This document shows positions 1,753 to 18,783 of a stretch of 21,556 bases of DNA, in pieces. Each line of letters starts with the position of its first letter. Within the stretch, counting starts at the first letter, position 1. Position numbers and translations under genes: made by a program. Origin of the DNA: a virus; the IMG/VR virus record IMGVR_UViG_3300031711_000090, positions 1-21,556 of that record; one strand, 5' to 3'. Under the pieces are notes generated by a model. That model was not told the DNA's origin. It was given only the letters and a program-made list of their open reading frames with translations, and searched no databases.

Positions 1753-3913
1753 GAAGTTGGGGTTTTTCAAGCGACTGGAGGCGGCGTCGATGGTGCTACG
1801 AGGTCAAGGCGTGCCGGCGTTCTGGTTTGCTCGAGCAATCGAGATCGGGAGCCAGGAGGTTTTGCAGGAGCCTTACAAGTCTTCAGTGTGGGTGCAGGCG
1901 GCGATAAAGAAGATTGCGGGGCCGATCAGCTCGGTGCCGGTGAACTTCTACTCGACGCGGACGGCTAAAAAGAGGGGGAAGGGTTACCGCAAGCGGGATG
2001 ACGATCAGACGGTGGATTTGCCGGAGATGGATGCGCTACTTCGCGCGCCGATGCAAAATCTTGGCTATAGCGACTTTTGCGAGGCGACGGTGGGATGGCT
2101 GAAAATGTCGGGCGAATGCTTCTGGTTGCTGGATGATTCAATGCTGGTGCCATTTCCTGAAGCGCGCGGGCGGGCCTTGCCACAGGTGATCGTGGCCAGG
2201 CCGGATCGGATGCGGCATGTAATCGAAAATAATCAGCTCAAGGGGTGGAGTTACAATGATCCGTCCGGAGGGATGCATTCATTACTGCCTGAGCAGGTGA
2301 TCCAATTGAAGTACTGGAATCCCTACAATCCATGGCGTGGGTTGAGTGAGTATGAGGCAACGCTGATTGCCGCGGAATCGGATTGGCTGGCGGGAAAGTT
2401 TGCCAGAAACCTAATGGCAAACAACGGGGACACGGGGCCTTACATCGTGGCGAAGAACGGAATCCCAACGGATCCGCAGCGGGAACAAATTCTTGCCGAT
2501 TTGAGGGCAAAACGCGCGGCCCAGCAGCGCGGGGATTTCCGGCCAATCTTTTTGACAGGCGACATTACGGTAGAGGATCCGCAGGTGCGCAGTGTGGACG
2601 CGGCATTCATTGCACAGCGCCTGGAGAATCGGCACGAAATTTTCATTGGCTTTGGAGTCCCGCCGTCCATGGCGGATGTGAAGGCGGCGTATTCGATTGG
2701 CAGCGCGAGTGATTATTATCAGCTAATTGCCAATACCTGCATTCCAACGGGCGGGAAGCTGGCGGACGGCATCAAGCGGCTGACTGTAAAGCTGCAAAGG
2801 GCTGACGTGGATGTGGAGTTGGACTGGGATGAGCATCCAGTGATGCAGGAGGTGCGCAAGGAACGCCTGGCCTCGGTGGAGGTGCTGTGGAGTAAAGGCA
2901 TGCCGATGCAGGAGATAAATGAGTATTTGGGCTTGGAACTGCCAGAGTTTGACGGATGGGAAGTGGGGTATTTGCCGTTTTCGGTGTCGCCAGTGGGATC
3001 GGAGGAGTTGGAAATGGCGCAGAGCCCATCGGAGAATCCTGACCTGGCGGAGCCGATAGCGGATCAGCCCAAAGCGGTGAGGGAGATGCTTGGGGCGCTG
3101 AGGGAAACCAAGGCGGCGGCTCTAGCAGACCTAACGCGGGCGAACAAGAAGGCGATCTGGGAAGCGCATATGCGCAAGCGGGCCGGAACAATAAAGACTT
3201 ACCAAGGCAAGGCGAGCCGGGTGATTAATGAGTTTCGCGGGAAGGTCCTGAATAAGTGGGCGCAGTATGAGTCCGCCCACGCAAAGCAGATGGTTCAGCG
3301 CAGTGTGATCGATTTTATTTTTGACGCGGCGGAGTTTGGGAACGCGTTGCGGGTGGTGATGAATCCAGTCTCGCAAGCAGCCTTGCAGACGGCCGGGGAG
3401 CAACTTTTTGAGGAGATTGGCCGGAGTGACCCCTGGAAGATGCCACCGCATAAGGCGCTGGAGTTTGTGGCGAGCCGTAATGGGGCTCTGAAGGGGGTGG
3501 GGGAAACGGTGCGCGGACAGCTTAATACGGTGTTGGAGACGGGCTTCAAGGAAGGCACGAGCATCGAGAAGATGACGGATGAAATCCGGGGTGTGTTCAA
3601 CAATTTGGCGAAGTATGAGGCGAAGCGGATCGCGATGACGGAGACGTCGGTGGCGTTTGGTTTCGCGCGGGATGCCGCGATGCGCTCGGCTGGGGTGGAG
3701 CAAAAGATGTGGCTGAGCAGTCACGGTGAAACGGTGAGGCCGGCGCATGCGGCGGCGGAGGATGATTATGGGGAAAGCCCCATTCCGATAGATGAGCCTT
3801 TTGTCGTGGACGGCGAAAAGCTGATGTATCCGGGCGATCCGAATGGGTCAGCCGAAAATGTGATCAATTGTCATTGTGTGAGCATCGCGGCGGCGCCGGC
3901 GGACGAAATCTAA
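1745..3913 (+). CDS. Portal protein fused to MuF-like head morphogenesis domain
   Basis: The N-terminal part (about 1-420) is an HK97-type portal, the dodecameric ring at the head vertex through which DNA passes. Signs are the segment YKSSVWVQAAIKKIAG (44-59), the stretch VIQLKYWNPYNPWRGLSEYEA (185-205 region) and RHEIFIGFGVPPSMAD (296-311). After an acidic linker (about 420-445) comes a helical region, then a C-terminal MuF-type domain (about 600-715) with RPAH (H668) and the terminal NCHC (708-711) typical of Mu gpF / SPP1 gp7 proteins. These are usually encoded by a separate gene after the portal, so 722 aa is a natural fusion. The start is GTG 1745; no better start fits the portal N-terminus. 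Confidence 0.93.
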   Translation: MGKKLGFFKRLEAASMVLRGQGVPAFWFARAIEIGSQEVLQEPYKSSVWVQAAIKKIAGPISSVPVNFYSTRTAKKRGKGYRKRDDDQTVDLPEMDALLRAPMQNLGYSDFCEATVGWLKMSGECFWLLDDSMLVPFPEARGRALPQVIVARPDRMRHVIENNQLKGWSYNDPSGGMHSLLPEQVIQLKYWNPYNPWRGLSEYEATLIAAESDWLAGKFARNLMANNGDTGPYIVAKNGIPTDPQREQILADLRAKRAAQQRGDFRPIFLTGDITVEDPQVRSVDAAFIAQRLENRHEIFIGFGVPPSMADVKAAYSIGSASDYYQLIANTCIPTGGKLADGIKRLTVKLQRADVDVELDWDEHPVMQEVRKERLASVEVLWSKGMPMQEINEYLGLELPEFDGWEVGYLPFSVSPVGSEELEMAQSPSENPDLAEPIADQPKAVREMLGALRETKAAALADLTRANKKAIWEAHMRKRAGTIKTYQGKASRVINEFRGKVLNKWAQYESAHAKQMVQRSVIDFIFDAAEFGNALRVVMNPVSQAALQTAGEQLFEEIGRSDPWKMPPHKALEFVASRNGALKGVGETVRGQLNTVLETGFKEGTSIEKMTDEIRGVFNNLAKYEAKRIAMTETSVAFGFARDAAMRSAGVEQKMWLSSHGETVRPAHAAAEDDYGESPIPIDEPFVVDGEKLMYPGDPNGSAENVINCHCVSIAAAPADEI

Positions 3914-3916
3914 ATT

Positions 3917-4114
3917 ATGAATTTAAGGAAATTAAAAAGGGCTCTGCCTAAAGGCGCCGAGGCGCAAAGGCAAGGCGACCAGGTGGAAGTGCATTTGCGA
4001 GGGGCTACGTTTCGAGTGGAGGCCGGCCTGGGATGGGAGGAGCGGCAATTAGCGGACTATTTGGGAAGCAAAATTCCGGTGGCGGTGGCGCTCCCACCGA
4101 GAGAACAGAGGTAA
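3917..4114 (+). CDS. Small basic protein of unknown function (65 aa)
   Basis: The gene begins with ATG 3 nt after the portal stop and ends 2 nt before the protease start, so it is embedded in the operon. The N-terminal 20 residues are Lys/Arg-rich (NLRKLKRALPKG) and the middle looks like a short beta segment (QVEVHLRGATFRVEAG) followed by a possible helix (WEERQLADYL). No signal peptide or membrane segment is present. I do not recognise the family. Its place between portal and protease suggests an accessory head-assembly role, but this is only positional. Confidence 0.65.
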   Translation: MNLRKLKRALPKGAEAQRQGDQVEVHLRGATFRVEAGLGWEERQLADYLGSKIPVAVALPPREQR

Positions 4115-4116
4115 TT

Positions 4117-4797
4117 ATGCTAAGACGCACCATTAATCCAGAGGTAAGGGTCATCGACGAAAAAACGGGCATTGTGGAGTACGTGGCCAGCGATGAAACG
4201 ATCGACAGCTACCGCGAGGTGATCAAGGCGGATGGGTGGCGGTTTGACGAGTTCAAGAAGAACGCACCGTTTGTGGACTCGCATGATTATTCGACGCTAG
4301 CAAACCTGCTAGGGCGGGTGGTTGATTTCCGAGTGGAGCAAAAGCGGCTGATTGAAACGGTAAAATGGGCGGTGGACGTACCAGAGAACGCGCTGGCGCA
4401 ACTGGGTTTCAACATGACGAAGGCGGGCTATCTCAAAGCGGTGTCGGTGGGGTTTGTGCCGACGCAATACGCCACAAAATGGGACGCGGACACGAAGGCA
4501 TGGAAATCCGCACTACAAGCGTGTGGGCGCAAGGAAGATGACGGAGTGGCCTGTATATATCTGGAACAACAGCAAAAAGAGCTGAGCGCCTGTGTGATTG
4601 GCGCGAATCCAAACGCCCTGGCAAGGGGCTACAAGGCGGGGGTCCTAACGGACGCTGACCTTGATTTACTTTCCATCGAGAGGGCTAAACGCATCACCGT
4701 CAACCCGGCTGATAGTCCCGCTGCTGCCGCGTTGACCAGGCAGCGGGCGCGGATGGCGTTCCTGGTGGGGTTAACAACAAAAATCAAATCAATCTAA
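4117..4797 (+). CDS. HK97-type prohead protease (peptidase S78 family)
   Basis: This serine protease matures the prohead by cleaving the capsid protein's N-terminal scaffold segment. The catalytic histidine is H56 in PFVDSHDYS and the nucleophile is S110 in LKAVSVGF, the family's usual His...Ser arrangement. The segment KELSACVIGANPNA (155-168) corresponds to the family's conserved LLEWSVVPxPANPxA stretch. I chose ATG 4117 because GAGG lies 5 nt upstream and the family similarity begins about 20 residues later. An in-frame extension to 4033 would add only a Gly-rich leader inside the preceding gene. At 226 aa it has the usual length. It lies directly before the capsid gene, as expected. Confidence 0.92.
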   Translation: MLRRTINPEVRVIDEKTGIVEYVASDETIDSYREVIKADGWRFDEFKKNAPFVDSHDYSTLANLLGRVVDFRVEQKRLIETVKWAVDVPENALAQLGFNMTKAGYLKAVSVGFVPTQYATKWDADTKAWKSALQACGRKEDDGVACIYLEQQQKELSACVIGANPNALARGYKAGVLTDADLDLLSIERAKRITVNPADSPAAAALTRQRARMAFLVGLTTKIKSI

Positions 4798-4799
4798 TT

Positions 4800-6197
4800 A
4801 TGTTACGCAAAATCGCGGTGTTATTGGACCTCCATGGCGCGGACGGCAATGGAGTTCTGCCGGAAGCGGACTTTCAGAGAAAGGTTTTGGGCGGGGTGGA
4901 AGCTCTGAGCAAAGAGCAGGAGAAATTCAAATCGAGCCAGCAAAAGGTGCTGGATGATTTGGACCGCTCGGACAAGGAAGTCAAAAAGGCGGTTGAGGAC
5001 CTGACGAAGGTAAAGAACCAGGTCAACACTTCCTATGAGGAAGTGATGAAGGCGATGGCTAAAGTGCAATCGCAAGTAGCGTTGAACGCGCGGAGCTCGT
5101 TTGCGAATCCCATTGACCGGGTGCTGGCGAATGAGGAGACGAAGTTTTACCTGAATGCGTTGATCCGCTATTGCCATCACATAAAGGATGGCTCGCTCAG
5201 CCGAGTGCCGGCCGAAATGCGCAAGGTGGTGGAGGAAGGCAGCGCGGTGGCTAAGTCTTTGACTGGCGTGGATAGCTCACTCGGCCAGGCTACTGTGCCG
5301 CAACAAACCTTCAACGAAATCTATGACACGCTGCTTGAATACGGCGACTGGCCGAGCTTGGGTGTGATTCGCGTGGGCATGCGTACAACGGTAGTGCCAA
5401 TCGGGACGGCGCGGCCATTGTTCTACTGGATTGGATCAGGCACTGGCGGACACGGGGAAAGCTCAGCCATTGCGGAGGGAGCATTTACCGGGTCTTCGGT
5501 GAATTTGGTCATTCAGACTTTGGCGGCTTACCTGACGGTGGCGCGTGAACTTCTCGCGGATTCAACCGTTGACCTGGCGGGTTACATCCTGAAGCAAATG
5601 GCTCAAACCATCAGCTTCGGTTTGGACACGGTAGCGTTTTCCGGCCAGGCCGCGGCGAGCCAAACGGACGCCGGGTATCGCGGAATCTTCTACGCCGATG
5701 GCGCGAATGTGAACCTAGCGGCCGCGGCGGCGGCGGGGAACGTTTCGATCACCGGTTTGGAGCTGGATGACTTTGTGCGCTGCTTGACGACGGTTTCGCC
5801 AATTGTGCTGAAACGCCAGGCGAAATGGTGGATTCACCCACAGGTAATCGCGCTGTTCGTCTTGATTCGCGATAAGAACAACCGGCCTATTTTCCAGACG
5901 TGGCAGGAAGTGCCGACGCCAGGAGCGATTGGAAGCATTTTAGGCTACCAAGTGAAGCCGACAGCGGTGGCGCCGAGCACGGACGGACCTGGGCTGCCGG
6001 TGGCGGTGTTTGGCGATCCGGATGGCCAGGCGGTGGGCATCCGCTCAGACATGGAGCTGGCGACTAGCGACGACATCAAGTTCGCAGAGAATATGCGCGC
6101 TTTCCGGGCGCTGATGCGGACGGGTGTGATGATCAAGACCGCGTCGGCCTCAACCACGCTGAAACCGTTTGCTGTTTTGAAAACCGCAGCGTCATAA
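4800..6197 (+). CDS. Major capsid protein, HK97 fold, with N-terminal scaffold domain
   Basis: This is the main shell subunit of the head. Residues about 30-95 are highly charged and predicted coiled coil (KEQEKFKSSQQKVLDDLDRS and after). That is the delta-type scaffold segment normally removed by the neighbouring protease. The fold proper starts near 100. The region around 185-235 (VRVGMRT, FYWIGSGTGGHGESSA) and WWIHPQVIALFVLIRDKNNR (about 345-365) resemble the E-loop/spine and P-domain of HK97-family capsids. The start is ATG 4800, 2 nt after the protease stop. The cleavage position (perhaps 95-105) is inferred. Confidence 0.9.
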   Translation: MLRKIAVLLDLHGADGNGVLPEADFQRKVLGGVEALSKEQEKFKSSQQKVLDDLDRSDKEVKKAVEDLTKVKNQVNTSYEEVMKAMAKVQSQVALNARSSFANPIDRVLANEETKFYLNALIRYCHHIKDGSLSRVPAEMRKVVEEGSAVAKSLTGVDSSLGQATVPQQTFNEIYDTLLEYGDWPSLGVIRVGMRTTVVPIGTARPLFYWIGSGTGGHGESSAIAEGAFTGSSVNLVIQTLAAYLTVARELLADSTVDLAGYILKQMAQTISFGLDTVAFSGQAAASQTDAGYRGIFYADGANVNLAAAAAAGNVSITGLELDDFVRCLTTVSPIVLKRQAKWWIHPQVIALFVLIRDKNNRPIFQTWQEVPTPGAIGSILGYQVKPTAVAPSTDGPGLPVAVFGDPDGQAVGIRSDMELATSDDIKFAENMRAFRALMRTGVMIKTASASTTLKPFAVLKTAAS

Positions 6198-6233: not shown

Positions 6234-6689
6234 ATGAGAATTATTAAACAGGTGTTTGGAGTGGCGCTGGTTGTCACCTCGCTGATTGGCACAGCGCAGG
6301 CGCAATACAAGGTCACAACTTTGGTGACGACGAATGACGTGCCAAACAGTTCGACCACGACAGCAAATTTGGGTGGACCGATAACGGCGACCAAATATGG
6401 CGAAGTGGGGCTGTCCATTCAGTTCGCGTTGAACGCGGCGGGAACTACCGCCTGCACTTTCAACTTTGTGAAGTCGCCAAATGCGGGAACCAATTACGAA
6501 ACCGGCGCATGGTACTCGGTATCGATGGTTCCGAACGGCACTACGATGGTCTCGACGAACGTCACGGTGACAATGGGGCCGTTTGGCTACTTGAAGCCAT
6601 TTTCGTTTGTGGCGGCAAATAACACTGCCGCGATGACGAACATCTCGATCCAGTACGTGTTAAAACCAAATCGACTGGACGGTAAGTAG
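6234..6689 (+). CDS. Small protein with signal peptide next to the capsid gene (decoration-like position)
   Basis: The 151-aa product starts with a textbook Sec signal: a basic n-region (MRIIK), a hydrophobic core (VFGVALVVTSLIG) and an AQA cleavage site before Q24. The remainder is Thr/Asn/Val-rich, likely all-beta (NVTVTMGPFGYLKPFSFVAAN), with no cysteine pair or catalytic motif I can see. It occupies the place where many phages encode a capsid decoration or head-fibre protein, and it is followed by a strong terminator. A signal peptide is unexpected for a decoration protein, which must reach the cytoplasmic head. It could instead be a lysogen-expressed envelope or surface protein. Confidence 0.82.
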   Translation: MRIIKQVFGVALVVTSLIGTAQAQYKVTTLVTTNDVPNSSTTTANLGGPITATKYGEVGLSIQFALNAAGTTACTFNFVKSPNAGTNYETGAWYSVSMVPNGTTMVSTNVTVTMGPFGYLKPFSFVAANNTAAMTNISIQYVLKPNRLDGK

Positions 6690-10454: not shown

Positions 10455-13400
10455 ATGAAACCGAAATGGATTCTGGCGGTGGTGATGGTGATGACGCTGG
10501 TGAGCGCGCAAGGCGCGGTGGTGACGTTTTCTGAGGGGCGACTGGCGAGCGGGGCCCAGAATCGGCTGATTACGATTTCACTGGCGAGTGATCCGCTGGC
10601 GGTGACGACGAATATTGTCTTTGGGACACCGATGAAGCTGCAGCCGGTGGGAGGCGTGGTGACGGTGACTAACCTGGTGGCGGCGAATTATTGGGTGCGG
10701 ATTGACGGGGTGGAGAAGCCGATGTTCATGCCAGTGCCGGACTCGACGAATACCTATAATGCGGTGGATTTGATCACGGACGGGCTGAAGCACATGATTG
10801 GGCAGACGAATTATGTGCTTATCGCAGGGCTGCCTACGGTGAGCTCGATTACGTCGACGGATACGGTAGTCGTGCAGGTGGGGGCTTTCCCCTTCAACGC
10901 GCCTCGGCAAATCTCCGGCAGCGGTCTTGCAACCAGCTTGTCTTTGATGGGATTGGCGAGCACGGGTTTCGTGGCCCAGACGGAGGCGCCGCTGGCGAGC
11001 ACGAATTATGTGAACTCGGTTTTTGCGGCGGCGCTGGCGGCGAGTGTGAGTGGGGTGGCGAGTGTGAACGGGCGGACAGGGGCGGTGAGCCTGGTGAGTG
11101 GAGATGTGACGGGGGCGCTGGGGTTTGTGCCGGTGACACCGAGCCAGTTTGCGAATGCGCTGACGAATAATGAGGCCGTGGCGTTCGCGCTGCATGGCGC
11201 CGTGACGATTAATCCGAATCTTGGAACTCCTGGTTTTGGACTTGATGTGCAGCCATCGAGCGGATTTAACGCGCTGAGTGTGAGGGATCGGAATGGGGTT
11301 TTGACAAGCTGGTTTGACCAGGACGGAAAGCTTCATGCTGATGGCGGGTTTCTAAGCAACCTTGGGTTATCCGCGTTGCAGGCCGGAGGGGCGACGGTGG
11401 GCCAGGCGCTGATATACAATGGCAGCATTTGGGCGCCGACAACGATTGTGGGTGGTGGTGGTGGCGCTCCGGGATTCACAGTGGGGACAAACGTTACGAC
11501 GTTTCTGGGTGGGCTCGGCGGGACTAACACGGTGCTGAATGCGGATGTGTCGCACTCGGAGGTGGTGGCATCGACAAACAAGTTAAATACGGACCTGCAG
11601 GCGCAATTGGCGCCGACGCTGGCGAGGTTTCGAGCGCAGACACAGTTCTCAGATATGCTGGATCCGGGTGGACTGCCGATCATTGACGGGAACACGAATG
11701 TGGGTTTTCGCAGGATTTACGATCCGCTGGGGCTTCTGTCTGTAAAGATTGAGACAAATCTCGTGACGTTTTCGCAGGCGGTCAAGGGGTTGGGACCGGT
11801 GTCGGCGAATAATTTTCAGGGGACGGTGGGGAGCTCGAATATAGCGGGAGTGGTGGCGCAAGCGAGCCAAGCGGCGGTGAGCGGTTTGACGATGAGTTAT
11901 GGTCCGAGGCTGGCGCTGGCGGTGTTTATTTGCGGTGATTCCTGGTCGGATACGAACACGGCGACTGGGGTGGCGCCGTACGGACTTTGGACGGAGATGT
12001 TGAGGACGAACCTGATCGGGGCGGGCTACACGATAGCGGCGTGGAGCAATAACGCGCATGCGGGCTACACGATCGGAGACCAGACAAATAATTTTGAGGT
12101 GTGGTATGGACCGATGACGAATTGGGTGGGGAGTGGGACAAATGTGCTGTTTGTGGATCTGACTGGAATCAATGACAGCCGGGGCTATGACGCGACGGGA
12201 TTTTGGGTGCCGACAGCAGGGCAGGCTTTTGCGGCGAGCACGAATATGTGGTCGCGGGCGCGGGCCAAGGGGGCGACGGTATTTGCGGCGACGGTGCCGG
12301 CGTCGGCGTTTCCTGGGACGGTGGAACCGGCGAGCTTTTTTAGTTTTCGGACAACTTACAATTCGGCGGTGCTGGGGACTCCAGGGCTATACGACGGGCT
12401 GGCGGATTTGAGGTCGGTGTTTATGAATCCGCAAAATACGTCGCTTTATCAATCATCTGATGAGCTGCATCCAACTACAGCCGGTCATGTGGAGCTGGCG
12501 CGTTTGTGGATGGAGGCGATTTCATCGTCGCTGTCGGCGCGGCCGTCGATGAGGGCGATGCCGACTGAGCTTGACTGGGTGAGCGCGTTACAGAATCGCA
12601 TGGTGAGCCCATCAATCAGCGGAGGATTTACAATCACGGACCCGAACGGAACGCCGAGCATGACGCAGTATTCGACCAATATTGCGGACTCGATTGGGAC
12701 GGTGCTGGTGCTGACAAATCCATTTGTTTCGGGCCACAGGCTGATGGCCAGGGTGCGGGCGTTTATACCTGGGCCCGGCATCGCAAATGACGCGATAGCG
12801 TTGACGTTTACGGATCCGGATCATGGCTTCACGAATCTCGATGGGCTGATCATCACGCGGGATGGGAAGGTTTATGGGGATGCTATCAGCATGTCGAATA
12901 CGGTGCCGCCGAATGTGACGTTGGTGAATCAAGCCACAATGATAGCGGCGAGTGGAAGCCCGAATGGGTATTATTTGGATTCGTGGGGACAATCGGCAGC
13001 GACTCCCTTGAATGTGTGGATGACGAATGCCGCGCTGGGCACAAATCTGTTTCGGCTGGAGACGGTGTTGTCCGGGACGGCGCCGACAGCCAAGACCTGG
13101 AGTTTTCATTTTCAAGATGCGGCTTTCACCGATCATTTGGGAATGGAAGTCAATTCGCAGGGGGATGGGTATTTCCCAGGGCGAGTGACGGCTGCGGGTG
13201 GGGCGAGCATTTTGCTGAGTGACGTGACATCGGTTTTGGGATTCACGCCGAGCGCGGCGGAATTGACGAATGGGCAGACGACACTGGTGAGACTTGGGGG
13301 AAAGTTGTGGCTGGAGAATTGGGGCGCAGCAAACACGAATGCGCTGACTTTTTTTGGGCCGACGAATAGCGCTTCGGTGGATTTTTGGAGGGCGTTTGAC

Positions 13401-14321
13401 GGGACGGGCAGCTATGTCGCAAGCCTGGATAGCCAAGGCAGGCTGAACGCAAATTACATCCATGTTTTGCTGGCTAGTCCGAACACCACGGCGGCCTTCA
13501 ACTCTTTGGGTGATTTGACTTCGGTGGCGACAACTCCGACTGAGCTGGGTTATGTGCATAACGTCACAAGCTCGATCCAGGCGCAGCTTAATGCGCTGGC
13601 GAGCGCGGGTGGGGGGAATCTGAACGCGGTGACGAATAATGACACGCGGTCGATTACGCTGAGCAACGGTCTGACGGTGGTGGGGCCGATGACAATCATT
13701 TCGTCCACAAATATTGATTGGTCGGTGAACGGGGTTTTGACGGGGTGGCTGGCGGCGTCAAATGGATTTTATGGCGCGCTGCACGGGCAGGCGGACACGG
13801 CGAATGGGTTAAGTGCCACGGCGAGTCTAAGCGGCGGGACGCAACTGGCGATGGTGTATTACGATAATAATGGGCATATAGCCACGATGAGCCAGGGCGG
13901 AACGGCGAACTTGCTGCATGGCGGATCAGGTTCGACGGCGCCGGCGTTTGGGCCGGTGATGGGCAGTGAGGTAAGCGGGGCGGTGGCGACGGCCACGGGG
14001 GCGAGCTATTCCACCAATGCGTTTGATGCGACCACTAATGTTTTCGGCGGCAATATTGTGCTGGGGCAGTCTTGCACAACAAATTTCTCAGGCAACGTGA
14101 CGATCAGCGGTTTAACGAGTTTGCCGGGGTCGACGGAGCGAGCGGGAAGATTTATGGGGTTGAACACGGACTCGGCGACGCACACGGTGACGACGCCGGC
14201 GAGCTGGCGATGCTCGGATTACACGAGCACCCACTATGTCACTAATGGCTTTGCGATTGCGCTGGTTCCGGATGTGTTGCCGGGGCAGATGACGAATTGC
14301 GCGGTGGCGTACTTCAAGTGA
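10455..14321 (+). CDS. Large tail-fibre-like protein with signal peptide and embedded SGNH/GDSL esterase
   Basis: The 1288-aa protein opens with a signal peptide (MKPKWILAVVMVMTLVSAQG, cleavage near 19-21). Fibre-type motifs follow: SVNGRTGAVSLVSGDVTGAL (203-222) continuing into LGFVPV, a second copy DVTSVLGFTPS (923-933), and TPTELGYVHNVTSSIQAQLN (1027-1046). These are hallmarks of trimeric phage fibres. Residues about 484-692 form an SGNH hydrolase: block I ICGDSWSD with S496, block III GINDSRG with N573, and block V DELHPTTAGH giving D669 and H672. Such enzymes de-esterify glycans, and fibre-borne ones strip acetyl groups from host surface polymers. A Gly-rich hinge is at 333-340. The remaining beta-rich regions (about 720-1288) are likely receptor-binding. 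The signal peptide is odd for a virion part. Confidence 0.87.
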   Translation: MKPKWILAVVMVMTLVSAQGAVVTFSEGRLASGAQNRLITISLASDPLAVTTNIVFGTPMKLQPVGGVVTVTNLVAANYWVRIDGVEKPMFMPVPDSTNTYNAVDLITDGLKHMIGQTNYVLIAGLPTVSSITSTDTVVVQVGAFPFNAPRQISGSGLATSLSLMGLASTGFVAQTEAPLASTNYVNSVFAAALAASVSGVASVNGRTGAVSLVSGDVTGALGFVPVTPSQFANALTNNEAVAFALHGAVTINPNLGTPGFGLDVQPSSGFNALSVRDRNGVLTSWFDQDGKLHADGGFLSNLGLSALQAGGATVGQALIYNGSIWAPTTIVGGGGGAPGFTVGTNVTTFLGGLGGTNTVLNADVSHSEVVASTNKLNTDLQAQLAPTLARFRAQTQFSDMLDPGGLPIIDGNTNVGFRRIYDPLGLLSVKIETNLVTFSQAVKGLGPVSANNFQGTVGSSNIAGVVAQASQAAVSGLTMSYGPRLALAVFICGDSWSDTNTATGVAPYGLWTEMLRTNLIGAGYTIAAWSNNAHAGYTIGDQTNNFEVWYGPMTNWVGSGTNVLFVDLTGINDSRGYDATGFWVPTAGQAFAASTNMWSRARAKGATVFAATVPASAFPGTVEPASFFSFRTTYNSAVLGTPGLYDGLADLRSVFMNPQNTSLYQSSDELHPTTAGHVELARLWMEAISSSLSARPSMRAMPTELDWVSALQNRMVSPSISGGFTITDPNGTPSMTQYSTNIADSIGTVLVLTNPFVSGHRLMARVRAFIPGPGIANDAIALTFTDPDHGFTNLDGLIITRDGKVYGDAISMSNTVPPNVTLVNQATMIAASGSPNGYYLDSWGQSAATPLNVWMTNAALGTNLFRLETVLSGTAPTAKTWSFHFQDAAFTDHLGMEVNSQGDGYFPGRVTAAGGASILLSDVTSVLGFTPSAAELTNGQTTLVRLGGKLWLENWGAANTNALTFFGPTNSASVDFWRAFDGTGSYVASLDSQGRLNANYIHVLLASPNTTAAFNSLGDLTSVATTPTELGYVHNVTSSIQAQLNALASAGGGNLNAVTNNDTRSITLSNGLTVVGPMTIISSTNIDWSVNGVLTGWLAASNGFYGALHGQADTANGLSATASLSGGTQLAMVYYDNNGHIATMSQGGTANLLHGGSGSTAPAFGPVMGSEVSGAVATATGASYSTNAFDATTNVFGGNIVLGQSCTTNFSGNVTISGLTSLPGSTERAGRFMGLNTDSATHTVTTPASWRCSDYTSTHYVTNGFAIALVPDVLPGQMTNCAVAYFK

Positions 14322-14324
14322 CGC

Positions 14325-14346
14325 GTGGCGAGTGGTGAGTGGCGAG
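14325..14346 (+). repeat. Imperfect GTGGCGAG direct repeat
   Basis: GTGGCGAGTG-GTGAGTGGCGAG fills the gap between the fibre stop and ATG 14347. It consists of GTGGCGAG at both ends with a GTGAG spacer. It supplies the purine-rich GAG just before the start. Similar tracts occur at 10411, at 16761 and inside the terminase gene (773-803). Confidence 0.7.
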
Positions 14347-15408
14347 ATGAAAAGAACGATTTTAGCTGTGGTTGCATTGCTGAGCTGGGGGACGGCTTTT
14401 GGGCAGTTCACGTTCAATGATGCGGGCTTTTTGGGTGCGCTCACTCCACCAGCCGCCACTTCGGGTGGCTCGGCGCCGGTGATTTCGAATGTGAGTTGCG
14501 GAACGCCGACCAGCTCGGGGATGACGATTACTTGGAACACGGACGTGTCGACGGTGAATAATAAGGTGCAGTACTCGATCCACGCGGACATGAGCGCATC
14601 CAGCACGGCGACGGGGAGTGATGGTGGGACTTCGCACAGCGTGCCGCTTACAGGGCTGACTGCGAGCACGGTCTACTACTACCAGGTGCAAAGCGACGCG
14701 AACTCGCAGACGACGTTTTCGAGTGAGGGGAATTGTACGACGGCCGCGGGTGGAAACCTGCTTTCGGCGATGAATCCTAACTTTGTTTGGCTTAACACGA
14801 CAAATGTGACGCTGGTTTCTGGGACGCAAAATGTGACCAATTGGGTTGATTGCTCGAATCTCTTCGTGCTGAAGGCGAGAAGCACCTCGGCTTACCCCAC
14901 AAACAACACCTCAGCAAATGGCGGGGTTTGGTTCACGGGTAATGGCAACTGCTATTTGACGAATCTGTCTGTGCCGGCAGGGATTTCTTTTTCGTCCAGC
15001 GGGAATTGGACGCTGGCTTGGCGGTCTGCGGTGAACTCGGGTAACTCGGGCCGCGGGGCATTATCCATTCCAAACACAGGGGACGCCGGGGTAGTTTTCG
15101 GGAACCCAACCACGCCTTCATTGAGCGTGATTTACGGGGCCACGGATGTGAGTCGAACGCTGGTGGCGGGGACGCTTTACTCGATCATGCTAAGCTGCTC
15201 GAGCGGGACTTGGACGCTGTACACTAATGGCGTCTCGGCATTGACCGGCACTGGCTTTAGCACGTGGGTTGCTCAGTGTGTTGGGAATGATCCGACCACC
15301 GACCCGTTAACGGGCTACATCCAAAAAATGGCCTATTGGACGAACTCGGCCAAGACACAGACGGACGCAACGAATTGGCACACGTTTTGTGTGCAGAATA
15401 ACCCGTGA
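14347..15408 (+). CDS. Secreted Fn3 + LamG-like lectin protein
   Basis: The start ATG 14347 gives a clean signal peptide (MKRTILAVVALLSWGTAFGQ, cleavage near 18-20); the in-frame GTG at 14332 lies in a repeat tract. Residues about 44-133 are an Fn3/purple-acid-phosphatase-N-like domain (PVISNVSCGTPTSSGMTITW, then GLTASTVYYYQVQSDA). Residues about 140-353 look like a LamG/ConA-type jelly roll (SSSGNWTLAWRSAVNSG, LYSIMLSCSSGTWTLYTNGV). Both domains usually bind carbohydrate or protein surfaces; no catalytic motif is seen. The last four bases overlap the next gene (GTGA), so the two are translationally coupled, a pairing typical of binding and hydrolysing partners. Confidence 0.85.
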   Translation: MKRTILAVVALLSWGTAFGQFTFNDAGFLGALTPPAATSGGSAPVISNVSCGTPTSSGMTITWNTDVSTVNNKVQYSIHADMSASSTATGSDGGTSHSVPLTGLTASTVYYYQVQSDANSQTTFSSEGNCTTAAGGNLLSAMNPNFVWLNTTNVTLVSGTQNVTNWVDCSNLFVLKARSTSAYPTNNTSANGGVWFTGNGNCYLTNLSVPAGISFSSSGNWTLAWRSAVNSGNSGRGALSIPNTGDAGVVFGNPTTPSLSVIYGATDVSRTLVAGTLYSIMLSCSSGTWTLYTNGVSALTGTGFSTWVAQCVGNDPTTDPLTGYIQKMAYWTNSAKTQTDATNWHTFCVQNNP

Positions 15409-16754
15409 AATACTGGGCGATCATCTTATTTGCAGTGTGCAGCGCGAGCGCCCAGGTGGCTTATCCTTTGAAGCTTTCGGCGGGGAAGCATTATTTGGTG
15501 GATCAGAATGGGACGCCGACGTTTTTGCAGGGGGAAGGGGCTTACTCGATGATTGCACAGTTGAGCGGGCCGCAGGCGGATCAATACCTGTCGAACCGAT
15601 GGACGAAGGGGTTTAACTGCGCGCTGGTGAATTTGATTGAGCATCAGTTTACGACGGTGCATCCCGCTCCGGCCAACGCCTACAACGTCAAGCCGTTCAC
15701 TGGGCTAATATCGGGGACCTGGTACGATTTCTCGACGATCAACGCCGACTATTTCACGAATGTGGATTATCAGCTTTTACGCGCGAGCAATTACAACGTG
15801 TGCTTGTTCGTCTTCCCGGCTTACTTAGGCTTCGGCGGCGGGAGCGAGGGTTGGTACGCGGATATGACGCACAATTCGCTTACTTCGCTGACAAACTGGG
15901 GCAAGTACGTCGCGGGCCGGTATATGAATTTCCCGAACATCGTGTGGGTGGGAGGTGGGGACTACAACGCGGCGGACAAGACAGGGATCGACGCGGTGAT
16001 GTATGGGATCTTGAGCGTGGATTCGAATCACATTGTTTGCGCGCACAGTGCTCGAAACCACAGCGGGTTGACGGATTACACTGAGTCTTGGGATCTATTC
16101 AATTCGACCTACACGGCGAACATCACAGCGAGCCAGACGTTGACGGATTATCAGCGGAGCCCGGTATCGCCGACGTTTATGATTGAATCGGATTACAATG
16201 GGGAAAACAGCGCGACGGCGTTGACTTGCCGGGAAGAGGCGTGGCAAACGGTGTTTTCGGGTGCGATGGGGAATTTCTTCGGCCAGACAGCGACTTGGCA
16301 GTTTACGAGCGGATACCTCACAGAGTTGGACAATAGCGCAAGCACCAGCATCACAAACCTGGTGAAGTTGCTGCGGACAAAGAGTTGGTGGCTAGGGGTG
16401 CCGGATACGAATAGCTCTGTTTTTACCAGTGGGCGGGGCACGGGTGGGATTTCGTCGCAGGGGTATATCTCCGGGCTGAGAGCGACGGATGGGACGTTTG
16501 TGCTGGCTTATTTTCCGGATGGGGTGAGCACGCCGACTATCGACATGAGCAAGCTGCAGGCGCAGGTGAGCGCGAGTTGGTTCAATTGCCGGGATGGCAG
16601 CTCGAGCAATTTTGCGAGTTATGCGAACTCTGGGAGCCGAACTTTTACGGCGCCGGATTCGAATGACTGGGTGCTGGTGCTGGATGCGCCGACTGTGGCG
16701 ACGACGTTTACGAAGACTTACGGCGCGGGAAAGCATGGGACGGGAACGAGGTGA
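15405..16754 (+). CDS. Secreted DUF4038-type glycoside hydrolase with putative collagen-binding-like C-terminal domain
   Basis: The GTG at 15405 overlaps the previous stop as GTGA and gives a signal peptide (MKYWAIILFAVCSASAQ). The rest follows the DUF4038 (apiosidase-like TIM barrel) pattern: HYLVDQNGTPTFLQGEGAYS, then WVGGGDYN (D186), MIESDYNG (E261, candidate catalytic acid) and CREEAWQTVFSGAMGNFFGQ, which fits the family's R-x-x-x-W-x-x-L-x-G-x-x-G-x-x-Y-G. Residues about 345-428 match the usual C-terminal beta domain (FVLAYFPDG, WFNCRDGSS, DWVLVLDAP). Family members cleave terminal glycosides of plant or microbial polymers; the substrate here is unknown. At 449 aa it is complete. I infer a depolymerase-like role. 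Confidence 0.88.
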   Translation: MKYWAIILFAVCSASAQVAYPLKLSAGKHYLVDQNGTPTFLQGEGAYSMIAQLSGPQADQYLSNRWTKGFNCALVNLIEHQFTTVHPAPANAYNVKPFTGLISGTWYDFSTINADYFTNVDYQLLRASNYNVCLFVFPAYLGFGGGSEGWYADMTHNSLTSLTNWGKYVAGRYMNFPNIVWVGGGDYNAADKTGIDAVMYGILSVDSNHIVCAHSARNHSGLTDYTESWDLFNSTYTANITASQTLTDYQRSPVSPTFMIESDYNGENSATALTCREEAWQTVFSGAMGNFFGQTATWQFTSGYLTELDNSASTSITNLVKLLRTKSWWLGVPDTNSSVFTSGRGTGGISSQGYISGLRATDGTFVLAYFPDGVSTPTIDMSKLQAQVSASWFNCRDGSSSNFASYANSGSRTFTAPDSNDWVLVLDAPTVATTFTKTYGAGKHGTGTR

Positions 16755-16760
16755 AGGGAA

Positions 16761-16770
16761 GTGGCGAGGG
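16761..16770 (+). repeat. GTGGCGAGGG motif before the HTH gene
   Basis: A third junction copy of the GTGGCGAG motif lies 3 nt before ATG 16774 (or directly before GTG 16771). Its GAGGGG may double as Shine-Dalgarno, though the spacing is very short. Confidence 0.5.
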
Positions 16771-16773
16771 GTG

Positions 16774-17010
16774 ATGGGCGAGATTACAGAACGTCAAAGG
16801 AGTGTGGTGAAGGCATGGATGGCGGCGGGGTCGGTGAAGGGCGCGGCGGGGCGGCTGGGGCTCGCGAGCAAAACGGTGGAGTACCATTTAACTGCGGCGC
16901 GGTATCGGCTGGGAATAGGGCCGCTGATGTGGCTGGCAGTTTGGGCAACAAAAAACGGAATGGTGCCGGGGGTGAGACGGGGGCTTGGCGCGGGAAAGAA
17001 TAAGATATGA
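16774..17010 (+). CDS. Stand-alone LuxR/GerE-type HTH protein
   Basis: The 78-aa protein is little more than a LuxR-type helix-turn-helix: ITERQRSVVKAWMAAGSVKG (4-23), the turn AAGRLGLAS and the recognition helix KTVEYHLTAARYRLGIG (33-49). No receiver, PAS or autoinducer domain precedes it. The C-terminus is a short hydrophobic stretch (PLMWLAVWA) and a basic tail. It would bind DNA, probably as a dimer, in the cytoplasm. ATG 16774 is chosen; GTG 16771 would add one residue. The reading frame upstream to 16594 is a shadow of the hydrolase gene. It ends in an ATGA overlap with the next gene. A DNA-binding regulator inside a tail-fibre cassette is unusual. Confidence 0.8.
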   Translation: MGEITERQRSVVKAWMAAGSVKGAAGRLGLASKTVEYHLTAARYRLGIGPLMWLAVWATKNGMVPGVRRGLGAGKNKI

Positions 17011-17408
17011 AAAAATATTTGGCGTTGATTGGAATGGTGGCTTTCGTAGGACTGGCGGCTGGGACGGCAAGCAATCGAACGCTGCAATTTAAGTGGGCGC
17101 CGAATCCGGTTGATCTGGGCGGGATGTCGACGAATGACTACTGCACGAATATCACGATTGTGGCGTTTTCGGTCACGGACTGCACTGTGCCGACGAACTT
17201 ATGGCCAGCGGTGGCGAGCTGGCCGGCGACGTATTTTTTGAACCAAGGGCCGCCAGGGTCGCAATGGGCTGCGGTGGTGCAGACGGATCAGTCGGTGAGG
17301 TTTTACATGCTGGCAGCGACGAACGGGAGTGGAGTTGCTAGCCCTTTTTCAAATGCCGCCACTTGGGTGCCGGCGCCCCCGGCGGGAGTGGTGCTGGGAA
17401 TAAGGTGA
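17007..17408 (+). CDS. Small secreted Fn3-like protein (133 aa)
   Basis: Start ATG 17007 overlaps the HTH stop. A signal peptide is clear (MKKYLALIGMVAFVGLAAGT). The mature part is one beta-sandwich, Fn3-like domain: TLQFKWAPNP at the start and VRFYMLAATNGSGVASPFSN near its end, the Y-x-x-x-A-x-N-x-x-G-x-S-x-x-S pattern of the last Fn3 strands. It contains two cysteines (in TNDYCTNIT and VTDCTVP) that could pair after export. No enzyme motif is visible. It closes the secreted group and precedes the right copy of the 9-bp repeat. Confidence 0.78.
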   Translation: MKKYLALIGMVAFVGLAAGTASNRTLQFKWAPNPVDLGGMSTNDYCTNITIVAFSVTDCTVPTNLWPAVASWPATYFLNQGPPGSQWAAVVQTDQSVRFYMLAATNGSGVASPFSNAATWVPAPPAGVVLGIR

Positions 17409-17451: not shown

Positions 17452-18783
17452 ATGGAACGCGAGTTTAAAATACTAATTACGGGGGACGCGGGCGGGCTGG
17501 CAAGCTCGGCTAAGGAGGGGGCGAGCGCGCTGCGGGATGAGCTGAATCCCGCGGTGGAGAGTTTCCACAAGAACTGGAAGGCGGCGGACGCGTCGGTGGA
17601 GGAATCTGTAAGCAAGGGATCGCTAAGCAAGATGGTGCGTGGTCTGAGCCATCAGTTTCCGGAGCTGGGGATGTTGGCGCGGGTGGCAATCAACCCGATT
17701 GTGGGCGGGTTTATGGCGCTGCTGGCGTCCGCAAAGGCGGTGAATAAGGTTTTTACGCAGATTATCGCGAATTCAAACACGGGGATTTTTTCAGGGACGT
17801 TTTCGCGGGATATGGATGCGTCCACGAAGGCGGCGGTGGAGGGTGAGGTGGCGTGGAGGTCGTTTGAGCGGGCTTTGAGCGCGGTGGCTGCGGCTGGGAA
17901 GTCTGTAAAGACAAACACTGAGGAAGCGATTGCGGCGATTCGGCAGCATGGGGTGGCGGTGGCAGAACAGCAAAACGCGGCCAAGGCGCAAGAGCTGGCC
18001 AAAATAAACATGCTGGAGGAGACAGACCAAATGGGGCATCCGCAGGCAATCCAGGCGCGGCTTGATATCGAGGACGAGTATGCGCGTCGGAAGCTGGTGG
18101 CGAATATCGAGGCTAAGGATGCGCAGATCGAGGCGAAGCGTAAAGAGGTGGAAAAGCTGAGCCAGGGCGCCGAGCATGAGGAGCAAAACGCGGCGGCCGC
18201 GCGGAAGGAGTATGAGGATGCGCAGCGGGATTTGGAACGGTTTCAGGCGCTGAAGTCGGCCACTGATAAGGCGCTGGCGGAGACGACTAAGCAGGTGAAT
18301 GCGCTGCAAGGGGCTAATTTCATTGGTCCGGGGCAGATTAACCAATTGGACACTGCAAGGGCGCTGCAAGCGCAATTAAGGACGCGTGCAGGGGTATTGG
18401 GTGGGCAAGGGGTGGATTACGCGGACGCAGCGCGGGCGGCGAAGGAGCGCTATGACACCTCGATGACGCGGGCGCGGGAGCTGCGCGGGAGCGCGACTGA
18501 TATCGGGCAGGGAATACCAGCTGAGCAGGCGCTGGCGAATCAAGGGTATCGCGACGCCGGCGAAGTGGCGGCGACGGAGCGGCTGACGCGGACTTACAAA
18601 GCCACGGCGGATGTGGCTAAGGAGCAAAGCCAGGTGAGTGGAGCTATCGACAAAGCGGTGGAGGGAATGCATGGGGTGGCGGTGTCGAGTCTGATAAAAT
18701 TGCAGGCGACGACACAAGCGCTGGCGGATTTGCAGAAGAGGGTGGCGGGGTTGGAGGCGGCGAAAGATAACCGACATCTGTAA
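17452..18783 (+). CDS. Tape-measure-like coiled-coil tail protein
   Basis: The 443-aa product begins EREFKILITGDAGGLASSAK, in the style of tape-measure N-termini. It then has a hydrophobic stretch (VAINPIVGGFMALLASAKAV, about 80-100), which tape measures often carry, and long charged helices (about 170-300: EAKDAQIEAKRKEVEKLSQG and beyond). At about 0.15 nm per residue it would set a tail of roughly 65 nm, so it is short for this class. It ends in a TAATG overlap with the next gene, which looks like a hub protein and supports the role. Alternatively it is a tail chaperone-like helical protein. I see no lysozyme or peptidase domain. Confidence 0.7.
   Translation: MEREFKILITGDAGGLASSAKEGASALRDELNPAVESFHKNWKAADASVEESVSKGSLSKMVRGLSHQFPELGMLARVAINPIVGGFMALLASAKAVNKVFTQIIANSNTGIFSGTFSRDMDASTKAAVEGEVAWRSFERALSAVAAAGKSVKTNTEEAIAAIRQHGVAVAEQQNAAKAQELAKINMLEETDQMGHPQAIQARLDIEDEYARRKLVANIEAKDAQIEAKRKEVEKLSQGAEHEEQNAAAARKEYEDAQRDLERFQALKSATDKALAETTKQVNALQGANFIGPGQINQLDTARALQAQLRTRAGVLGGQGVDYADAARAAKERYDTSMTRARELRGSATDIGQGIPAEQALANQGYRDAGEVAATERLTRTYKATADVAKEQSQVSGAIDKAVEGMHGVAVSSLIKLQATTQALADLQKRVAGLEAAKDNRHL

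Follow-up and report, generated by a model that had tools for sequence, protein, structure and literature searches.

Phage polysaccharide depolymerases and tailspikes are sugar-cutting enzymes encoded among tail and fibre genes, and such depolymerases are sought for use against capsules and biofilms. In the sections considered here, the DepoScope paper reports 984 folds for the INPHARED phages, comprising 844 beta-helices, 119 beta-propellers, 11 alpha/alpha toroids and 10 TIM barrels; its training folds were beta-helices, beta-propellers and triple helices only, and PF13204, the family of the enzyme described below, is not named in these sections (PMC11326577).

The best-characterized relatives of this enzyme are the GH140 beta-apiosidases, represented by BT_1012 (PDB 3kzs/5msy) and a mangrove-metagenome protein (8t9w), which likewise combine a TIM barrel with a beta-sandwich and carry a catalytic Asp/Glu pair. 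For BT_1012, the first solved PF13204 member, the part of the structural report used here assigns Asp187 and Glu284 to the putative active site, with Trp63, Trp149 and Tyr287 as probable sugar-binding aromatics (PMC4032388). A further set of homologs, annotated as DUF4038 proteins, is encoded on plasmids of Sinorhizobium, Shinella, Agrobacterium, Rhodovastum, Neorhizobium and Rhodococcus, among genes for exopolysaccharide (EPS) synthesis and outside phage operons; their role is putative there as well.

Here, we describe a PF13204 gene within the structural operon of a phage. The stretch of DNA analysed, referred to as the window, is the entire IMG/VR virus record IMGVR_UViG_3300031711_000090, 21,556 bases in length. 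With a probability of roughly 60%, we consider this gene to encode a glycoside hydrolase that cuts EPS or capsule at the host cell surface, i.e. a depolymerase, which would work with a lectin and an esterase-bearing fibre. In the following, the families, predicted fold, catalytic residues, genomic slot, recurrence in phages, tree branch and EPS-cluster neighbours of the enzyme are results of computation.

Organization of the locus

The long plus-strand operon of the window encodes a terminase (PF17289/PF03237) and, next, a portal that includes a Mu F-like part (PF04860, PF04233). Between the portal and a lectin/enzyme gene pair lie genes assigned by their position to capsid, connector and tail; a gene in tape-measure position and a tail protein follow the pair (Table 1). 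Since terminase, portal and Mu F-like domains are found upstream in what is a whole virus record, the tail operon proposed in the initial annotation is a sound label. The region 10455-17408 had no blastn match in phages, and querying with the 670-aa tail protein gave no match either. The site of the LuxR/GerE gene, after the hydrolase and before the tail genes, is odd for a regulator, and this gene shares an ATGA overlap with the next one.

Table 1. Features around the hydrolase gene and the evidence for each
Feature	Position	Strand	Evidence
Fibre-like protein, 1288 aa	10455..14321	+	signal-like N-terminus (home-made rule), GDSL/SGNH hydrolase-like domain at residues 494-678
Lectin-like protein, 353 aa	14347..15408	+	fn3/purple-acid-phosphatase N domain at residues 48-132; C-terminal half LamG-like; N-terminus signal-like
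GTGA stop/start overlap	15405..15408	+	sequence
Glycoside hydrolase PF13204 + PF12904, 449 aa	15405..16754	+	profile match, AlphaFold model, D186/E261 pair, signal-like N-terminus
LuxR-type (GerE) helix-turn-helix protein, 78 aa	16774..17010	+	PF00196 6.7e-7, 29.3 bits vs cut-off 23.5
133-aa protein, signal-like N-terminus	17007..17408	+	no family match
Coiled-coil-like protein, 443 aa, tape-measure position	17452..18783	+	synteny with L018, L013; no tape-measure family match
Tail protein, 670 aa	18783..20795	+	homologue adjoins tape-measure-like gene in L018: 32.7% over residues 5-117, E 4e-8

The fibre-like protein matches PF13472 at E 1.9e-5 (25.7 bits, under the cut-off of 32.9) and contains the motifs GDSW, GINDS and DELHP at residues 494, 571 and 669. 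It further holds one copy of VNGRTGAV and two of LGF[TV]P, motifs that we take to be typical of tail fibres.

The lectin-like reading frame starts at ATG 14347, with an in-frame GTG also present at 14332, and its stop codon (15406-15408) lies within the four bases that it has in common with the enzyme frame. As no purine-rich ribosome site is seen ahead of the GTG start of the enzyme at 15405, this overlap makes translational coupling of the two genes probable. The overlap and coupling thus stand as initially annotated, but the LamG label given to the first gene is weaker: a full-length scan of its product found the fn3-like domain (5e-12) and no LamG family, and its C-terminal 220 residues alone matched PF13385 (Laminin_G_3) at 4.3e-4 and 20.9 bits, which is below the curated threshold of 27.6. 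A single-sequence fold prediction reached a pLDDT of 33.3, a search for relatives with the gene gave no match, and homologues in Verrucomicrobiota (10/240 genomes) match mainly on the fn3 part. Independent evidence that a LamG domain and a PF13204 enzyme act together comes from another viral contig, L077, where both are fused in a single protein of 1075 aa.

A PF13204 hydrolase with an intact catalytic pair

By profile matches far beyond chance, the 449-aa protein is a TIM-barrel glycoside hydrolase of the PF13204 (DUF4038/apiosidase-like) family. Residues 26-329 cover positions 2-319 of the 320 in the Apiosidase profile (E 8.2e-42, 144.4 bits vs a cut-off of 26.5), and residues 356-427 match the beta-sandwich PF12904 (Collagen_bind_2, E 2.5e-13), which is the architecture that had been anticipated. 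The nearest PDB chains by sequence are the apiosidase 8t9w (1.5e-17), then 3kzs and 4qfu. An AlphaFold model built on 24 rows has a pLDDT of 82.9, with high confidence across most of the barrel, and its top match in Foldseek is again 8t9w (TM 0.77, E 6e-33). Among the viral structures of BFVD, no close fold match was found, the best having E 2.6e-10 at 11% identity; the GH5-like glycoside hydrolase of Erwinia phage phiEaP8 (A0A3G1QTK8), like our protein a predicted phage hydrolase, is a weak fold match (E 2.3e-7, 11% identity).

The putative catalytic residues, D186 in WVGGGDY and E261 in MIESDY, are both intact, as the initial annotation had noted. Both align with their catalytic counterparts in 8t9w, and D186 in addition with the Asp of BT_1012; the enzyme is presumably of the retaining type. 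We compared them in an alignment of 44 rows (8 phage enzymes, 15 bacterial members of the branch described below and 21 GH140-type enzymes), which leaves out 8 Verrucomicrobiota rows, one row from a contig filed as phage, two partial plasmid rows and three phage enzymes found later (L136, L138, L139). D186 is kept in 44/44 rows and E261 in 43/44. In a branch member on a Phyllobacterium plasmid (L109), Arg replaces the catalytic Glu and a pyruvyl transferase is absent nearby; this protein is possibly inactive.

In the same alignment, Y264, R276 and H214 are also kept in our enzyme, and three pocket positions are changed in it alone: E44 and N265 stand where the other 43 rows have D, and E or D, respectively, and Y47 where 42 of the 44 rows have W; the phage enzymes of L086 and L087, for instance, retain D and W at positions 44 and 47. 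These changes weaken the claim of activity, so that the earlier verdict of a likely active enzyme, which the intact pair supports, is fair but not settled. They would also suit a decayed enzyme whose barrel is retained as a receptor-binding domain and no longer hydrolyzes its ligand, as would the long terminal branch of the protein in our tree (1.18). Against this stand the retained D186, E261, Y264, R276 and H214, the full-length reading frame with its C-terminal domain and the high model confidence across most of the barrel, and we regard such decay as unlikely.

Relationship to GH140 and to enzymes of EPS clusters

As GH140 apiosidases are the top PDB matches by both sequence and fold, the enzyme might be a true apiosidase with plant pectin (RG-II) or apiogalacturonan as its substrate. 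It shares the catalytic Asp/Glu pair with them, but it is only about 20-22% identical to them, falls outside the GH140-annotated and PUL-encoded enzymes on a separate branch supported by 100/100, and lacks their set of sugar-binding aromatics. By alignment with the PDB chains, Trp63 of BT_1012 corresponds to Y47 (with a numbering offset of 20) and Trp149 presumably to Y140, while Tyr287 is kept as Y264. The GH140 signature of E48, A79-E80, W140, R187 and a Pro after the catalytic Glu is replaced by S, EH, Y, Y and S, respectively. Given further that pectin cleavage has no obvious use in a tail module, we consider a true apiosidase highly improbable.

The 100/100 branch instead unites the phage enzymes with EPS-type enzymes (11 phage, 14 EPS-type and one further row), apart from GH140 and SusC/D-linked enzymes. 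Its signatures in the 44-row alignment are S48, E79-H80 and Y140, together with Y187 in 5/8 phage and 12/15 bacterial members; most of the EPS-cluster proteins share them with our enzyme, whereas GH140 enzymes mostly have E48, A79-E80, W140 and R187.

A plasmid search with the enzyme of viral contig L086 matched 34 records (best: Sinorhizobium, 38%), 21 of which were fetched for their gene context. The bacterial branch members are mostly from Alphaproteobacteria, but also from Rhodococcus, and their DUF4038 gene mostly adjoins a polysaccharide pyruvyl transferase (PPT); the alphaproteobacterial loci additionally contain a flippase, a glycosyltransferase and sometimes Wza/Wzc-type genes. On the basis of these neighbours, we regard the loci as EPS-synthesis clusters. 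In flanks of 8-10 kb, tblastn detected a PPT at 13/15 bacterial branch members, the exceptions being Phyllobacterium L109 and Acidisarcina L106, and at 0/26 other PF13204 loci. This contrast is real, but its p value of 6e-9 is overstated, because related genera are counted repeatedly and the four queries (three proteobacterial, one from Rhodococcus) were all drawn from loci counted positive. The controls were 6 plasmid loci (4 placed in the tree; L116 and L119 unplaced) together with 20 Verrucomicrobiota loci, of which 16 fall into the GH140-type branch and some are truncated at contig ends. The relatives that matter here are hence not the polysaccharide degraders emphasized at first, be they GH140 enzymes or SusC/D loci, but enzymes of EPS-biosynthesis clusters.

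The tree allows for one or more acquisitions by phages. The eight phage enzymes known at an earlier stage formed one clade (100/99), which was broken once plasmid relatives were added, and the final tree needs two changes for the phage enzymes; a single phage clade is nevertheless not rejected, with p-AU of 0.0945 for all 11 and 0.362 without L077.

Recurrence in other viral contigs

A search of viral contigs with our enzyme alone gave no match, and alignments were required to find relatives. As these scans depend on short peptide patterns, the 10 further IMG/VR contigs that they revealed (L074, L075, L076, L077, L086, L087, L088, L136, L138 and L139), all with a PF13204 match above the cut-off, are a lower bound. 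In nine of the ten, virion or packaging genes are found at a distance of no more than about 10 kb from the enzyme. Terminase and portal flank it in L087 (phrog_15 and phrog_21) and L088, whereas in L086 it follows the portal and precedes a major head gene (terminase phrog_38, portal phrog_1216). Genes for tail terminator, tail tube and tape measure come after it in L076, and those for a major tail protein and tape measure in L136. In L138 and L139 it is found near virion structural or internal virion proteins, and in L075 it is part of a 1236-aa protein with a virion structural gene near. The fusion protein of L077 consists of further N-terminal parts, Laminin_G_3 and then Apiosidase, with a collagen-like tail fibre gene next to it. 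The exception is L074, which has portal, head and tape measure genes on the contig, but with the enzyme some 24 kb from the closest identified structural gene. Some of the carriers differ in their terminase and portal families, which suggests that the enzyme moves among unrelated phages or was gained repeatedly.

In several of these phages, a small beta-rich domain, similar by eye, precedes, follows or is fused to the enzyme (L086 7533-8285, L139 11242-11952, L077 8468 onward, L087 12662-15058, L088 5243-8104); it may be a virion adaptor.

Homologues are thus not confined to bacterial loci, which would have spoken against the initial annotation, and its suggestion of a depolymerase type without record in phages stands as a proposal. 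The open PMC literature yielded no paper that treats DUF4038 or PF13204 in phages and, judged by titles, none on phages among those on apiosidase or on GH140, the latter being on bacterial genomics or metagenomics. Among 50,697 INPHARED records, two match the enzyme (L014 and L015, i.e. MT835628 and MT835684). Both are filed as ‘Bacteriophage sp.’, but we rejected them as phage relatives for their bacterial-looking gene content, with neighbours that, from their sequence, we take to be SusC/SusD-like and sugar-ABC-transporter-like genes of polysaccharide utilization and sugar transport.

Slot, signal-like N-termini and host

The lectin/enzyme pair occupies a slot between tail-protein and tape-measure-position genes, as judged by synteny with a phage relative (L018) and a Rubritalea contig (L013), where the slot holds fibre-like and unknown genes. 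In this, the enzyme resembles the described phage depolymerases, whose carbohydrate-active domains lie in a structural or host-recognition module. L018 and L013 are the sole portal relatives that cover the slot, and the PF13204 enzyme is absent from it in both, so it is dispensable in this lineage. Such absence would be expected of a host gene captured recently, by chance and without a role in the phage. We consider this very unlikely, since the enzyme is found in 10 other viral contigs, the gene is tightly packed with its neighbours, and no close bacterial relative was found: the best is 36% identical over aligned columns, and the Verrucomicrobiota rows are at about 20-28%.

Portal relatives occur on one Rubritalea MAG contig and in 2/240 Verrucomicrobiota genomes, the Rubritalea one included, which suggests that the host probably belongs to the Verrucomicrobiota. 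PF13204 is present in 53 of these 240 genomes; in one Verrucomicrobiota genome (G189:C29, 109859-116819), two adjacent, very long reading frames (1744 and 1521 aa) each contain a PF13204 domain.

By a home-made rule, which called 200/9000 shuffled N-termini and 3/98 internal Met starts as background, signal-like N-termini are found in 5/18 genes of the window, namely those starting at 6234 (6234-6689), 10455, 14347, 15405 and 17007; the predicted cut in the enzyme is after residue 16. Sec-signal-like N-termini on genes within a late structural operon recur in the same slot of L018, where three genes carry them (2380-5178, minus strand), compared with none in L013. They were seen in 6/8 bacterial branch members checked and in 0/7 other phage enzymes, a set that does not include L136, L138 and L139. 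These N-termini argue against ordinary virion assembly of the enzyme, the lectin and the GDSL-bearing fibre; instead of becoming part of the virion, these proteins may be exported.

Signals on enzyme and lectin are also what one would expect of a lysogenic conversion trait, in which a prophage supplies its host with a secreted polysaccharide-degrading enzyme for nutrition, as the initial annotation had envisaged. PF13204 is an ordinary carbohydrate enzyme in Verrucomicrobiota, and an upstream gene in a contig near-identical to the window (L003) is, as we presume from its sequence, repressor-like. The gene, however, lies in the tail slot of a late structural operon, its product belongs to a branch other than that of the GH140 degraders, the enzyme is retained next to virion genes in other phages, and no transporter or sugar-catabolic gene was recognized among the reading frames and family matches of the window. 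We therefore find little to recommend this explanation.

Proposed function and implications

The branch shared with EPS-cluster enzymes and the PPT beside 13/15 of their loci favour an EPS or capsule depolymerase over a trait in carbohydrate use. We infer that the hydrolase gene, located in the host-recognition slot that follows the major tail protein and precedes the tape-measure position, would be expressed late, and that its product would be made together with the esterase-bearing fibre and the coupled fn3/LamG-like lectin. In this cooperation, the lectin would hold the polymer, the fibre esterase would take off acyl groups and the hydrolase would cut the polysaccharide chain. The window copy would either ride on the virion or be Sec-exported as a free or loosely bound enzyme.

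A more speculative version, which we put forward tentatively and hold to be possible rather than probable, extends the latter option to all three proteins. Fibre-like SGNH esterase, fn3/LamG lectin and EPS-branch DUF4038 hydrolase would form an exported kit for attacking polysaccharides, which leaves the infected cell late in infection, instead of or before mounting on the tail, and strips EPS from the host and from neighbouring cells in advance of the virions. As the slot of L018 contains three other genes with such signals, the export of slot products may be a habit of this lineage.

As far as can be judged from sequences and models, the depolymerase described here would represent a new enzyme branch for a known job, the degradation of surface polysaccharides by a phage-encoded enzyme, with the window copy possibly exported. 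Given the training folds of DepoScope stated in the sections considered here, a recurring class that is built on another fold and carried by phages whose terminases and portals are unrelated would escape this tool (PMC11326577). The signal-bearing fibre and lectin raise the question whether host-recognition proteins are exported by some phages. Finally, the link to the EPS-cluster enzymes provides a testable guess at the substrate, namely pyruvylated EPS, for the alphaproteobacterial-like members, and such a link would also explain the role of the DUF4038 genes in bacterial EPS clusters.
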